The notes under the pieces are model-generated. The model did no database searches. It saw nothing but the letters and a program-made list of their open reading frames with translations, and had not been told where the DNA came from. Positions 11,868 through 30,950 of a stretch of DNA of 57,358 bases are shown piece after piece. This stretch comes from Verrucomicrobiota bacterium (lineage in GTDB: Bacteria > Verrucomicrobiota > Verrucomicrobiia > Chthoniobacterales > UBA10450): positions 5,741 to 63,098 of the forward strand of contig QHQA01000066.1 in NCBI GenBank assembly GCA_003219695.1. The letters run 5' to 3'. Position numbers and translations under genes: made by a program. Position 1 is the stretch's first letter. Every line of letters starts with the position of its first letter.

Positions 11868-12118
11868 GACGATGAACGTGCCCGAATGACGAAGCTCGAA
11901 TGACCAATGACGAAGGAATGTCGAAGCTCGAAGACCATGACGCAGTCATCCTGAGCGGAGCCCGTTCGACTCGCTTCGCTCACTCAGGATAAACTCCGCC
12001 GAGTCGAAGGAACCCGTAGCGCTACCGTAAAGTAATGAAGCGGGATTCCTCGACTTCGCCCAGAATGACAGTCGCCATTTCGTCATTCGACATTCGACAT
12101 TCGTCATTTTAGTTACGC
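11868..12118. repeat. Inverted GAATGACGAA/TTCGTCATTC words enclosing a second repeat
   Basis: Left arm (11868-11935) is made of CGAATGACGAAGCTCGAATG-like words; right arm (12078-12115) of TTTCGTCATTCGACATTCG-like words, their reverse complements. Between them sits the GTCATCCTGAG...GAATGAC element (11945-12069). The whole 250 bp is a nested inverted structure filling the gap between the UPF0173 gene and alkA. No coding capacity is apparent. Confidence 0.65.
11945..12069. repeat. GTCATCCTGAGC...GAATGAC dispersed repeat, copy 1
   Basis: Begins GTCATCCTGAGCGGAGC and ends TTCCTCGACTTCGCCCAGAATGAC, the inverted terminal words of a family also seen at 23531-23624, 50674-50765 and, as a half copy, 51893. 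The interior here holds an extra inverted pair around CTCACTCAGGAT. No transposase is nearby, so it is a non-autonomous palindrome. Confidence 0.7.
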
Positions 12119-20297: not shown

Positions 20298-20380
20298 TGT
20301 AGCCGCTTCGCTGTGCGAAGCGCAGAAGCTCAGGTTGTCTGCGGCACGATCCCGGCGCGTCTCACAGAGACGCGGCTACA
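20298..20380. repeat. TGTAGC-hairpin-hairpin-GCTACA element, copy 1
   Basis: TGTAGC (20298) then CGCTTCGC-TGT-GCGAAGCG (20304-20322), a spacer, CGCGTCTC-ACA-GAGACGCG (20356-20374) and GCTACA (20375-20380). Both 8-bp stems are perfect, and the loops TGT and ACA are reverse complements. It sits between the GT39 and GT2 genes. Confidence 0.85.
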
Positions 20381-21687: not shown

Positions 21688-21758
21688 TGTAGCGGCGGTC
21701 TGTGACCGCCGACCATCAATCAAATATCACGATGCGGCGCTCACAGAGCGCCGCTACA
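21688..21758. repeat. TGTAGC-hairpin-hairpin-GCTACA element, copy 2
   Basis: TGTAGC, GGCGGTC-TGT-GACCGCC (21694-21710), 23 bases, GCGGCGCTC-ACA-GAGCGCCGC (21734-21754), GCTACA ending 21758. Stems differ from copies 1 and 3, but both remain perfectly paired and the loops are the same. Lies in the 87-bp gap between the PTS gene and argS. Confidence 0.9.
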
Positions 21759-21773: not shown

Positions 21774-23510
21774 ATGGAAACTTTCCAGTTACTTCTCGCG
21801 AAGAGGCTTTCCGATGCTTTGGCAAACGCCGGTTTGGCTGAGACCGGCGAGCTAACACAGGCGACCGATCCACGCTTCGGCGATTACCAGACCAACGTCG
21901 CCTTGGTGCTGGGAAAACAACGCGGCGAAAACCCGCCGGCGCTGGCGGAGAAAATTCTTTCGCACCTTGACGTTGACGATGTCTGCGAACTGCCGGCAGT
22001 CGCGGGCGCCGGCTTCATCAATTTTACGTTGCGTCCCGACGCCATCGAAAAAAAGACCCGGGAAGTTTTGCGAGACAATCGGCTGGGCGTTCCAGAGACC
22101 GCTTCGTCACAACGCATCGTCATTGATTTCGGGTCGCCCAACGTCGCCAAGCCGATGCATGTCGGTCATATCCGCAGCACCGTGCTCGGCGACGCGCTGG
22201 CGCGCATCGCGCAGTTCCTTGGACACGAAGTGATCCGGGACAACCACATCGGCGACTGGGGCACGCAGTTTGGCATGGTGATCTACGGCTGGAAAAATCT
22301 GCTTGATCGACAAGCTCTCCAGCGCAATCCGCTGGCTGAGATTGTGCGCATTTACAAAGAAACAAACGCACGCGCGGCGAGCGATCCGGAAGTTCGCGAG
22401 GCCTGCCGGCAGGAGCTGGTGAAGCTGCAAGCGGGAGACAAGGAAAACATCGACATCTGGAACGAGTGCGTCGCCCTATCGATGCAGGATTTCGAACACG
22501 TCTATAAACTGCTCGGTATCCATTACGACCTTCAATGCGGCGAAAGTTTTTATCACGATCGTTTGCCCGGCGTGGTTGATTGCCTGCTAAAAGCCGGCAT
22601 AGCGGAGATCAGCGAAGGCGCAGTGGTCGTTTTCTTCCGTGATAATCCAGAGCTGGCCGATAAACCATTGATCATTCGCAAACGCGACGGTGGATTCAAT
22701 TACGCAACGACCGATATCGCTACGGTCGATTATCGCGTTAACGAATTGAAAGCCGACGCTGTCTGGTACGTCGTCGGCGCGCCGCAGACGTTGCATTTCA
22801 AGCAAATTTTCGATGTCGCCCGGCGCGAAGGTTACACCGCTGATCTGCGCCACATCATATTTGGCAGTGTCCTTGGTGAAGATCGCAAACTGATGAAAAC
22901 GCGCTCCGGTGAAAATGTGCCGCTGCGCGAGCTTCTCGAGGAAGCATGCAAGCGCGCGCGCAAAATCGTCGAGGAAAAAAATCCGAACTTGAGCGAGGAG
23001 GAAAAGACCGACATCGCGGAAAAGATCGGAATCGGCGCAGTGAAATACGCCGATCTCTCGCAGTACCGGATGACCGATTACATTTTTTCCTGGGAGAAGA
23101 TGCTCGCACTTCATGGAAACACCGCGCCGTATTTGCAGAACGCGTATGTCCGGATTCGATCCATCTTTCGCAAAGCAGGCGAATCGTGGCATCGGCATCC
23201 TGCCGATGAGGAGATTGGCTGGAAGCCAATGCCACTTTGCCTCGCCGAACTGCCCGAGATCGATCTCGCCAAAAGGCTGTGTCAGTTCGCCGAGTTTGTT
23301 CCACATGCGTTGAACGGTTTTCGTCCAAACATCCTGACAAATTATCTGTTCGAGCTGGCAAACAGCTTCCACGCATTTTACGAAGCCTGCCCGGTCTTGA
23401 AATCGGAAGAGCCGAGGCGCAGCTCGCGTCTGGCATTGTGCGATCTGACTGCGCAGGTTTTGCAACGCGGACTCGGTCTTCTCGGAATCAAAGTGCCGGA
23501 GAAGATGTGA
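21774..23510 (+). CDS. argS: Arginyl-tRNA synthetase with a 16-residue repeat-derived insertion
   Basis: 578 aa class I synthetase. The N-terminal Add-1 domain precedes the HIGH-box block FGSPNVAKPMHVGHIRSTVL; the lysine loop follows as GEDRKLMKTRSGE, and the anticodon-binding domain ends FHAFYEACPVLKSE...LLGIKVPEKM. Residues 472-487 (WHRHPADEEIGWKPMP) have no counterpart in other ArgRS and are encoded by a 48-bp palindromic repeat exactly 16 codons long. The rest is intact, so the enzyme is probably functional. ATG 21774 fits the usual length. Confidence 0.95.
   Translation: METFQLLLAKRLSDALANAGLAETGELTQATDPRFGDYQTNVALVLGKQRGENPPALAEKILSHLDVDDVCELPAVAGAGFINFTLRPDAIEKKTREVLRDNRLGVPETASSQRIVIDFGSPNVAKPMHVGHIRSTVLGDALARIAQFLGHEVIRDNHIGDWGTQFGMVIYGWKNLLDRQALQRNPLAEIVRIYKETNARAASDPEVREACRQELVKLQAGDKENIDIWNECVALSMQDFEHVYKLLGIHYDLQCGESFYHDRLPGVVDCLLKAGIAEISEGAVVVFFRDNPELADKPLIIRKRDGGFNYATTDIATVDYRVNELKADAVWYVVGAPQTLHFKQIFDVARREGYTADLRHIIFGSVLGEDRKLMKTRSGENVPLRELLEEACKRARKIVEEKNPNLSEEEKTDIAEKIGIGAVKYADLSQYRMTDYIFSWEKMLALHGNTAPYLQNAYVRIRSIFRKAGESWHRHPADEEIGWKPMPLCLAELPEIDLAKRLCQFAEFVPHALNGFRPNILTNYLFELANSFHAFYEACPVLKSEEPRRSSRLALCDLTAQVLQRGLGLLGIKVPEKM
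23187..23234. repeat. 48-bp palindromic element inserted in frame in argS
   Basis: Terminal TGGCAT/ATGCCA, hairpin CATCGGCA-TCC-TGCCGATG (23190-23208) and hairpin ATTGGCT-GGA-AGCCAAT (23214-23230). Two hairpins with complementary loops inside terminal inverted words is the same plan as the intergenic elements. Length 48 keeps the argS frame open. Confidence 0.85.
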
Positions 23511-23530: not shown

Positions 23531-23624
23531 GTCATCCTGAGCGAAGCGAAGGATCTCGGATTTTTGGGGCATCCCTCGCGAAGAGGTGAATAGTAAGAGA
23601 TTCCTCGACTTCGCTCGGAATGAC
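23531..23624. repeat. GTCATCCTGAGC...GGAATGAC repeat, copy 2
   Basis: Starts GTCATCCTGAGCGAAGCGAA and ends GATTCCTCGACTTCGCTCGG plus AATGAC. It fills the argS-treY gap. The ATG in its last word (23620) is the only reasonable start for treY. Confidence 0.85.
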
Positions 23625-26487
23625 AAAGGATACGACAAAAACAACAGATCCCCGAATTCCCACCTGCACCTACCGATTGCAATTCAATCGGTGGTTCAGG
23701 TTTGCGCAAGCGCGGGAGATCGTGCCGTATCTCCATGAGTTGGGGGTGAGCGACGTTTACGCGTCGCCGTATTTTGAGGCGAGTCCGGAGAGCTTGCATG
23801 GCTACGACATTACTGACCATAACAAACTGAACCCGGCGATCGGCTCGCGCGCGGATTATGATGGCTGGATCGAAGAACTGCACGCTCACGGCATGGGCCA
23901 GGTGCTGGATTTTGTCCCGAACCACGTCGGCATCGCAGACTCGCGCAACGCCTGGTGGATGGACGTGCTGGAGAACGGGCGCAGCTCAAGGTATGCGCCG
24001 TATTTCGACATCGACTGGCAGCCGTTAAAGTCTGATCTGCGCGACAAGGTTCTGCTGCCAATTCTGAGCGACCAGTACGGGCGCGTGCTTGAGCGCGGCG
24101 AATTGCAGGTGCGTTTCGAGGAGGGAACGTTTTATCTTCTCTATGGCGAGCGCAGGCTGCCGATCGCGCCCGGTACTTATCGTTACATTCTCGAAGTCGC
24201 GCTGCAAAATCTCGCCGACCACAAGGACGAAGATTTTTATGCGGAACTGCAAAGCATTCTGACCGCGCTCGAGTATTTGCCGAAGCGCACCGAAACGGAT
24301 CCGAAACGAATTGCGGAACGCGCCCGTGAAAAGGAGATCATCAAGCGACGCCTCGAACGGCGTTGTGCGCAAGCGCCGCAGGTTCAACAGGCGATCGAAA
24401 AAGCAGTGGCGCAGATCAATGGAAATTCTGGCAATTCGCGCAGCTTTGATGCGCTGGATGCGCTGCTGAACGCGCAGTCGTATCGGCTGGCGTTTTGGCG
24501 GGTCGCGGCAGAAGAAATCAATTATCGCCGTTTTTTCGACATCAATGATTTGGCGGCAATTCGGGTCGAGCTGCCCAGGGTGTTCGACGCCGTTCACCGC
24601 CTACTACTGGACTTGGTGAGCACAGGCGCGGTGAGCGGACTCCGCATTGATCATCCCGACGGTCTGTATTTGCCGCGCGAATATTTCGTAAAACTTCAGC
24701 AGCGTTCCGCGAAAGCGCTCGGGATTGGATTGCCCCGCGACGGACGAGCCATCTATTTGGTTGCTGAAAAAATTCTCATCGGCTCCGAAAAGTTGCGCAA
24801 AGACTGGCCCGTCCACGGCACGACCGGGTACGATTTTGCCAATCACCTAACGCAACTGCTGGTCGATCCTTCGGCTGAAACAGCCATCACAAAAGCGTTC
24901 CATCGTTTCATTGGGCACTCGATGCCTTTGGGCCACCTGCTTTACGCGAAAAAGCTTCTCGTGATGAAGGTGGCTCTCGCCAACGATGTGGATGTGCTCG
25001 GCAACATGCTCGATCGGCTCTCCGAGCAAAACCGTTGGTATCGCGATTTCACGCTCGAGGCGCTCTCGCGCGCCGTGCGCGAGACGATCGCGTGTTTTCC
25101 GGTTTACCGGACTTATCTCGAGTCCGGTCAGCCGACCAGCAAGGAAGACCGGGAGATTATCGAACGCGCGATCGCCGCGGCCAAACGGCGGAACCCGGCG
25201 ATGGAAGAATCGATCTTCAATTTTTTGCGCGACTTATTGCTGTTTCGTTTTCCGCCGAACCTCGATGCCAAAGCGCGGGCTGCGCACACGCATTTCGTTC
25301 TGAAATTCCAACAAACTACAGCGCCTGTGATGGCGAAGGGCCTCGAGGACACGGTGCTTTACATTTACAACCCGCTGGCGGCGTTGAACGAAGTGGGAGG
25401 CGAGCCACAGCAGTTTGGGTTGAGCGTCGAGACGTTTCACGAACGAAATCTGGATCGCCAACGCAATTGGCCTGCGAGCTTGCTCGCCACCTCGACACAC
25501 GACACCAAACGCAGCGAAGACGCGCGCGCGCGAATCGCCGCCATTTCCGAAATCCACGAGCTGTGGCGGCGCTCGTTGCAACGATGGCATGTGGCAAATC
25601 GACGCTGGAAACGCACCGTCAGTGATTTGGAAGCGCCGGATGCGAATGAAGAGTACTTGCTTTATCAAACTCTGTTGGGCACGTGGCCCATCCAGGCAAA
25701 CGGTGACCCCGAACCGGTACCAACTCGGGATTACGTCGAGCGCATCCAAACCTATATGGCCAAGGCACTGCACGAAGCGAAGATCAACACCAGTTGGATC
25801 CAGCCTAACGAGCAATGGGACACAGCGATGCGCGATTTCATTGCCAATATTTTGGATGCTTCGCCGCGAAACAAGTTTCTGCCGATTTTCATTCCGGTGG
25901 CGAAGGAGATTGCGCGTCTGGGAGCGATCAATTCGCTCACCCAAACCCTGCTGAAGCTGACTTTGCCCGGCGTGCCTGACATTTATCAGGGGAACGAGAT
26001 CTGGGACTACAGCCTGGTCGATCCAGATAACCGGCGGCCGGTCGATTACCAACTGCGGCGAGAAATGCTTTCATCTCTGCCAAGCGCAAACCCTCAAGAG
26101 CTTCTGCGCAATTGGCCGGATGGCCGGATCAAATTGTCTCTGACCCAGCGAGCGTTGCGATTTCGCCACGAGCACGCCGGCCTTTTTCAGCGCGGCGAAT
26201 ATCTTCCGCTTCGCGTTAGTGGAATGTTTGCGGAGTCTTGCATCAGTTTCGCGCGACGGCTGACGGGCAAATGGATCGTCGTCATCGCGCCGCGACTTTC
26301 TTCGCGTGTTGGGTTTCCGCCGATTGGCGAATTATGGAAGGATACGGCCATCGAATTTCCCGAAACGCTTTCTCTCAAGAACGCGCATGATCTCTTCACC
26401 TGCCGGCCTGTTCGTCATCAGAAGCGGCGCGTCTCGGTAAGGGACGTATTGTCCGTTTTGCCTTTTGCAGCGATCACGAACCTGTAG
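23620..26487 (+). CDS. treY: Malto-oligosyltrehalose synthase
   Basis: 955 aa GH13 enzyme that converts the reducing end of maltodextrins to a trehalose unit. [47 protein letters not shown] (nucleophile Asp), LVAEKIL (acid Glu) and [17 protein letters not shown] are diagnostic TreY blocks. Both ends of the frame lie in dispersed repeats: the ATG is in GGAATGACAAAGG of the upstream GTCATC element, and the TAG stop is in the TGTAGC of the downstream one. No treZ is in the window. Confidence 0.95.
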
Positions 26488-26565
26488 CCGCTTCGCTGTG
26501 CGAAGCGTAGCTGGTGTGAATGGTTCCCTCGAAGGGCGTCGCCCACAGGGCGACGGCTACAGGTT
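26479..26565. repeat. TGTAGC-hairpin-hairpin-GCTACA element, copy 3, between convergent stops
   Basis: AACCTGTAGC (26479-26488) and GCTACAGGTT (26556-26565) are 10-bp terminal inverted repeats. Inside are CGCTTCGC-TGT-GCGAAGCG (26489-26507) and GTCGCCC-ACA-GGGCGAC (26538-26554). The TGTAG at each end provides the TAG stop of treY and of the convergent metalloprotease gene, both ending Asn-Leu-stop. Confidence 0.9.
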
Positions 26566-27437: not shown

Positions 27438-27560
27438 TGTAGCGCAGACTTCCCAGTCTGCTGTATCGTGGGTTTCTAAACCCGCACAGCGCGCGAATTG
27501 ACATGCCCGGCCGATTTGGAAATCGGCGACACAGCAGGTTTAGAAACCTGCGCTACGGCA
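27438..27560. repeat. Four-hairpin palindromic element with two matching arms
   Basis: Left arm: TGTAGC, GCAGACT-TCCC-AGTCTGC (27444-27461), GGGTTT-CT-AAACCC (27470-27483). Right arm: CCGATTT-GG-AAATCGG (27511-27526), GCAGGTTT-AG-AAACCTGC (27534-27551), CGCTACG. The right arm read on the other strand follows the same template as the left arm (GTAGCGCAG, hairpin, CTGCTGTRTCG, hairpin). Lies between the metalloprotease and efp genes, downstream of efp. Confidence 0.9.
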
Positions 27561-30810: not shown

Positions 30811-30950
30811 GACGAATGACGAATGACGAATAACGAATGACGAAAGAAGCAGGAAGCACCAATGATGAAAAAAGCTGGTCTTTATGTTCGTCATTTGGAC
30901 ATTCGTCATTCCTTCGAGCTTCGTCATTTGGTTTTCGTCATTTTTCGTTC
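30811..30950. repeat. Heptamer array GACGAAT x5 with inverted counterpart
   Basis: 30811-30845 is five successive 7-mers: GACGAAT three times, AACGAAT, GACGAAA. From 30887 the reverse-complement words follow less regularly (TTCGTCATTTGG, ATTCGTCATTCC, TTCGTCATTTGG, TTCGTCATTT). The region separates the glycosyltransferase start from the PBP 3' end and has no coding potential. Confidence 0.75.

Follow-up and report, generated by a model that had tools for sequence, protein, structure and literature searches.

REP-type palindromes in frame in one loop of arginyl-tRNA synthetase, and RAYT genes nested in housekeeping genes, in a family of Verrucomicrobiota

The argS gene of this Verrucomicrobiota bacterium contains, in frame, a palindromic element which is a REPIN in a permissive loop of the enzyme and not ordinary protein sequence. 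We consider it to belong to a small GTGG-tagged REPIN family and most likely to have entered argS after the split from the nearest sequenced relative, being tolerated in a flexible loop and presumably moved by a RAYT; as a whole we give this reading a probability of roughly four in five. The element lies in a window of 57,358 nt, the whole stretch of DNA that was analysed, and the features discussed below are collected in Table 1.

Table 1. Positions of the argS element and of other repeat and RAYT features (window positions unless a locus is named; ArgRS residues are counted from the ATG at 21774)
Feature	Position	Strand	Remarks
argS, arginine--tRNA ligase, 578 aa	21774..23510	+	TIGR00456 517.5 bits (cut-off 261.65); PF00750, PF05746, PF03485
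REPIN-like head-head REP dimer, 50 bp, in frame within argS	23186..23235		
Left REP: GTGG tag, 8-bp stem, 3-nt loop	23186..23208	+	
Spacer separating the two REPs, 5 bp	23209..23213		
Right REP: GTGG tag, 7-bp stem, 3-nt loop	23214..23235	-	
argS codons 472-487 (WHRHPADEEIGWKPMP), low-confidence loop of the ArgRS model	23187..23234	+	
GTAG-tagged REP dimer, intergenic	20299..20379		
GTAG-tagged REP dimer immediately 5' of the argS ATG, different family	21689..21757		
GTAG-tagged REP dimer at the 3' end of ORF 23620-26487	26484..26560		
Two inverted GTAG-tagged hairpins, 72 nt between, intergenic	27439..27556		
recG and metH, each with a RAYT nested in frame	L199 and L196		own genome

The preliminary description had drawn a 48-bp element encoding exactly residues 472-487, with hairpin loops TCC and GGA, and the sequence, the frame and the loops were all as described. 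The element is nevertheless better drawn with 50 bp, as each hairpin has an outer GTGG tag, and it then reads GTGG and hairpin, spacer, hairpin and inverted GTGG. It has the build of a REPIN, with short stem-loops (stems of 8 and 7 bp, loops of 3 nt) paired in inverted orientation about a short spacer and a tetranucleotide tag of the GTAG type, GTGG, outside at both ends. The folding z-scores of the 48-mer were -4.12 and -4.09 for the two strands, only 1 and 0 of 200 shuffles folding equally well. When compared with the empty loop of 87 nt, which is the commonest state (38 of 74 family loci) and serves as the reference for replaced length, the 50-nt element gives a net gain of 30 nt (10 residues), 20 nt having been replaced. 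The palindrome is in frame, as had been claimed, but with 20 nt of the empty loop replaced it was not cleanly inserted. The replacement is unlike a clean IS200-type insertion and counts against our explanation. In an unsystematic check no target-site duplication, which together with terminal inverted repeats would mark a MITE, was evident at the argS junctions, 2-20 nt being replaced across the loci.

Besides the argS element the window contains three more dimers, situated in intergenic DNA (20299, 21689 and 26484), and one wide inverted pair. Its GTRG-tagged hairpins number 16, whereas ten Markov resamplings gave 0-5. The TAG stop of ORF 23620-26487 is supplied by the GTAG tag of its REP (window 26484-26487). 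A repeat of CATTCGA/GTCATT-like units is also present as inverted copies at window 12078-12108 and 30815-30845.

The claim that a mobile-type palindrome lies within argS is borne out by near-identical copies elsewhere in the genome and by the empty loop of the nearest relative. Allowing up to two mismatches, the REP pattern was found at 19 places in the own genome, versus 2 for a reversed-pattern control. Clear dimers of the family of the argS element number about five; repetition as dimers in the genome is expected of a REPIN, though five is a low number for one. Two of the five are inside coding DNA (argS, and uvrA on contig C98, in frame on the opposite strand) and three are at gene borders (contigs C46, C102 and C5). 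The family being this small here, its present activity is unproven. A stricter half-REP pattern matched in 24 of 35 genomes of the genus, with a maximum of 17 in G029 and none for the reversed-pattern control. A sample of 435 kb of the own genome (the window and 20 further stretches) yielded 18 tagged dimers, whatever their family: 10 outside a longest-ORF tiling and 8 within it. As that tiling spans 89% of the DNA, tagged dimers are underrepresented in coding DNA. Four of those 8 appear to be genuine internal in-frame inserts (in argS, a CbiX-family protein, a sortilin-like protein and TreS) and the other four are doubtful. The bases 5' of the tag would at most form a weak target motif, with T at -2 in 22 of 45 REP ends and C at -1 in 25 of 45.

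The copy in uvrA agrees with the earlier suggestion that such elements can reach coding DNA. The longer piece of the own uvrA scored 938 bits with TIGR00630 (cut-off 729.8), and a piece of 240 aa matched no Pfam family. The stretch between the ABC signature and the following DEPTTG, read in 30 of the 83 matched genomes (L256-L285), is very variable in length and sequence, apart from a few near-identical loci (L274/L284). The element, family F1 in our naming, is present there in L256 (own genome), L258 (G006) and L267 (G015) and, in a form judged by eye to be decayed, in L266 (G017); several of the others have different palindromes or short tandem repeats. All three genomes with F1 in argS (G000, G006 and G017) have it in uvrA too.

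A search for argS in 83 genomes of the bacterial family, mostly many-contig drafts, matched 75 and gave 74 loci, some of them partial genes, in which the loop could be read. Taking a loop of more than 93 nt as an insert, 27 of the 74 loci are occupied (17 of 32 in the genus) and 47 are empty. All 27 inserts sit in the same loop, and every alignment block of at least 3 residues filled by fewer than 60% of the rows lies within it, so that the argS element sits in the only ArgRS loop where inserts were seen. An assembly artefact might be thought of, as the genomes are mostly drafts of many contigs and the window itself comes from a metagenome-assembled genome, but an artefact is hardly credible when the 27 inserts are of many kinds and keep the frame; in addition two named GenBank MAGs, L110 and L112, have the same loops as L034 and L054, though these are possibly the same assemblies.

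The inserts were sorted by eye into families whose names are our own, the placing of some decayed forms being uncertain. F1 is found at L030, L031 and L041, F2 at 10 loci, besides one copy that is displaced and one that is inverted, F3 at five loci with decayed forms counted in, and the remainder are three single hairpins and four others. At L034 and L110 a second palindrome-like stretch is apparently nested in the F2 dimer with the frame kept. The loop of L102 has a long repeat reading SPQPSPASGRG...GEKVRMRG, presumably of a kind found in many unrelated annotated proteins. A first form of an F2-like pattern gave 3 weak matches in the own genome (reversed control 2) and a second form 8 (control 0), indicating that the first form was too strict. 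Among 32 genomes (11 with and 21 without F2 in argS; G005, G020 and G027 were left out as undetermined) the F2 load of the genome was related to F2 in argS (one-sided Mann-Whitney p 0.009, or 0.027 after subtracting 2 per carrier), which is suggestive only.

The preliminary description had proposed that close relatives with the same residues but no palindrome would show the insert to be ordinary protein sequence. The 74 loci divide into 47 empty, 24 with other inserts and 3 with these residues, and of the three, L030 and L031 have the palindrome and L041 has it in decayed form. A chance palindrome or plain protein sequence was ruled out by folding against shuffles, by the copies elsewhere and by the empty relative. 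It is true that the stretch is translated free of stops in an otherwise normal ArgRS, and that L041 keeps similar residues despite the decay of its palindrome; however, near-identical DNA at the borders of genes and, on the opposite strand, in uvrA, the empty state of the nearest relative and of most family loci, and the presence of other palindromes in the same loop of other relatives leave this explanation with next to no probability.

A codon tree of argS was made without the loop from 77 rows (71 family loci and 6 outgroup sequences; L099-L101 and two duplicate named genomes were left out). It requires at least 17 changes between empty and occupied, or 22 when 13 insert labels are distinguished versus 23-27 in 500 label shuffles; collapsing branches with support under 95 gives 18 and 23. 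As 22 is below the value of any shuffle, loop occupancy is partly inherited, yet it changes often. In each of the five stretches compared the closest locus to L030 was L032, which has an empty loop and neighbours L030 on the tree, on a branch for which no support value is given. Between L030 and L031 pS was 0.10 in the insert (17 codons) and 0.61 in the rest of argS, so the insert looks younger than the split of the two genes. The replaced length, measured at the 13 of 15 loci tried where both tags could be matched, was 2, 11, 17 or 20 nt relative to the empty loop for elements of 47-71 nt.

These data suggest either two independent insertions at one site or transfer of the loop through a very short recombination tract. 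Against two independent hits, L030 and L031 have exactly the same junctions and the same 20-nt replacement. This identity, together with the 11 nt replaced in most of the measured F2 carriers (5 of 7) and the patchy distribution on the argS tree, is what would be expected if loop content had spread between species by short homologous recombination of argS, the original insertions being one or a few old events per family. A large recombination tract was looked for and not seen at L030, whose flanking stretches are nearest to L032; since this holds within 25 codons on either side, any tract would be very short. The differing replaced lengths and families mean moreover that several insertions would be needed anyway. 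We regard such spread as possible, at somewhat worse than even odds, and prefer entry of the REPIN after the lineages split.

Mapping of the insert on the structure of the enzyme, as had been recommended, placed it in a flexible loop of low pLDDT. The AlphaFold model of ArgRS (43 sequences) has a mean pLDDT of 93.3, and values below 50 over at least 3 residues occur only at 475-478 and 480-483, both in the insert; a Foldseek search with the model returned Neisseria and E. coli ArgRS with TM of about 0.9. The loop belongs to the DALR anticodon-binding domain and lies between helices 451-468 and 493-503. Tolerance would be due to a net change that keeps the frame, to a reading used that is free of stops and to the flexibility of the loop. 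It had been remarked that housekeeping enzymes seldom tolerate palindromes; this needs qualifying, tolerance here being tied to one loop which many repeats have entered.

The insert might instead have been retained as useful to ArgRS or its mRNA, as a selected loop extension or an RNA hairpin. Recurrence in one essential gene would fit such a role, as would pN below pS in 13 of 20 same-family pairs, most clearly in L030/L041 (pN 0.10, pS 0.42 in the insert); in the other 7 pairs pN exceeds pS. However, pN/pS was higher in the insert than in the rest of argS in all 20 pairs, which are non-independent and involve inserts of only 17-27 codons. The clearest pair, L047/L051 (22 codons), shows pN and pS of 0.20 and 0.15 in the insert versus 0.013 and 0.10 in the rest, the opposite direction to L030/L041. 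The palindromes of L041, L047, L051 and L035 have by eye decayed, and the insert is not confidently folded in the model. We therefore consider selective retention improbable, and these short comparisons hint that the insert may be near-neutral for ArgRS.

Movement of the element would have been by a RAYT, a Y1 HUH transposase, acting on single-stranded hairpins. A RAYT search of the 83 genomes matched 65 at 1e-10. The models with which the proteins were scored have cut-offs of 80 bits (the RAYT model NF047646) and 23 (Pfam Y1_Tnp). In G029 a RAYT lies in frame within sua5 (L244:1170-2957) and scores 81.5 bits with NF047646 when taken alone. Such sua5-nested RAYTs occur in four genomes of three genera (L306-L309), in frames reading Sua5_yciO_yrdC, Y1_Tnp and Sua5_C, the whole frames scoring 72.8-78.5 bits versus the cut-off of 80. 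REPs of the family of the argS element lie to both sides of them in L306 and L307; L308 and L309 have such REPs on one side. The same REP is thus found beside a RAYT, as is typical of REPINs, in relatives only: within 1.5 kb of the own genome's 14 Y1_Tnp loci there is no hairpin of this family, and a sua5-type RAYT was not found in that incomplete draft, where the best match (6.1e-45) is in carB. G006, the other genome with an intact argS copy and also an incomplete draft, had no RAYT match at E 1e-10.

More distant RAYTs are found inside long frames in family genomes. The recG and metH genes of the own genome (L199 and L196) and valS of G084 each hold one, the host genes scoring above their NCBIfam cut-offs. 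The NF047646 scores were 69.9 bits in recG, 79.5 in metH (84.1 as a DNA hit), 64.1 in carB and 63.5 in valS, against the cut-off of 80, and all of these and the sua5 copies were above the Pfam Y1_Tnp cut-off. A RAYT is nested in the central region of carB at at least 32 of 72 loci (71 genomes; L332 and L336-L365 among them), counting those on the same strand at most 900 nt downstream of the query segment. In 21 of the 32 the frame is 1,318-1,388 aa long and in 11 it is shorter, presumably through contig ends or stops. The frame runs open through the site in 22 of the 23 carB loci tried, with the HUH motif in 22 of 22 and the tyrosine motif in 21 of 22. The median dN/dS of the carB-nested RAYT was 0.145 over 62 of 231 pairs, the others being dropped with dS saturated or at most 0.1, and the seven pairs of lowest dS gave 0.12-0.22. 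The carB genes of G015 and G029 are the same except for 600 nt: in G015 the RAYT is absent, the REPs are left and the frame is kept. The carB frame of the own genome contains a stop farther downstream. L326 and L334 have a further repeat-like in-frame insert downstream of the nested RAYT, and in L358 the frame of another RAYT-like stretch is broken. Fourteen nested RAYT loci were scanned for tagged hairpins: 5 had them on both sides, 3 on one side and 6 on neither, and those in carB, recG and metH of the own genome had none on either side. In 144 genomes of the phylum most RAYT frames among the matches listed are short and stand-alone and a minority are long. The RAYT-host fusions in carB, sua5, recG, metH and valS may be translated as single chains with working host enzymes.

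As a parallel the preliminary description had named the palindromic elements of Rickettsia, which are palindromic repeats in frame within genes. Only this in-frame habit is common to both; RPE-1-type elements are longer than the argS element and to our knowledge are not linked to RAYTs. Intragenic GTAG/GTGG-tagged REP dimers with a RAYT are the closer parallel. The excerpts of Di Nocera et al. 2013 (PMC3733652), which name the Rickettsia elements, describe REPs that resemble ours in an unpaired 4-nt tag outside a short stem-loop, in inverted head-head dimers and in copies within genes, including both uvrA genes of Opitutus terrae (Verrucomicrobia) and tRNA synthetases of three other species. 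The majority of the O. terrae GTAG-20 repeats have a GTGG tag, and recB of two Xanthomonas species has REPs at about the same site while in other genes the sites differ (PMC3733652). In the present case several families occupy one loop across a bacterial family, and RAYT genes lie inside other genes, a situation that is not described in the excerpts of that paper. In the portion of Bertels and Rainey 2011 (PMC3116915) that we used, the REPIN is, as here, an inverted REP doublet with a short spacer and a RAYT association, but it is analysed in extragenic space whereas the argS copy is coding. According to the portion of PMC8266576 on RAYT / TnpAREP, the GTGG variant can still be cleaved by one enzyme, at altered sites. 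Our nested proteins are like these in matching RAYT or Y1_Tnp models and in the HUH motif of 22 carB copies, and differ in that the gene is in frame inside housekeeping genes.

A search of the open-access literature with literal terms returned intragenic REPs (PMC3733652) and, in the results listed, nothing on RAYT genes nested in carB, recG or sua5. As far as these searches show, two things are new: different repeats have repeatedly captured one ArgRS loop, and RAYT genes are kept in frame inside housekeeping genes. We tentatively suggest, from gene sequences, that the REP/RAYT system may live partly inside housekeeping genes: transposase and repeats would be maintained in frame within the linkers and loops of CarB, Sua5, RecG, MetH, ValRS, ArgRS and UvrA, be expressed with the host protein and be guarded since only an exact in-frame deletion would be viable, and the 600-nt difference between the G015 and G029 carB genes would be a route to a REP-only insert like that in argS. 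The repeated entry of different repeat families into one loop of an essential tRNA synthetase is a natural experiment in insertion tolerance that tests directly where REPINs insert and are retained, and RAYTs intact in frame in carB over several genera bear on why such transposases persist for so long.
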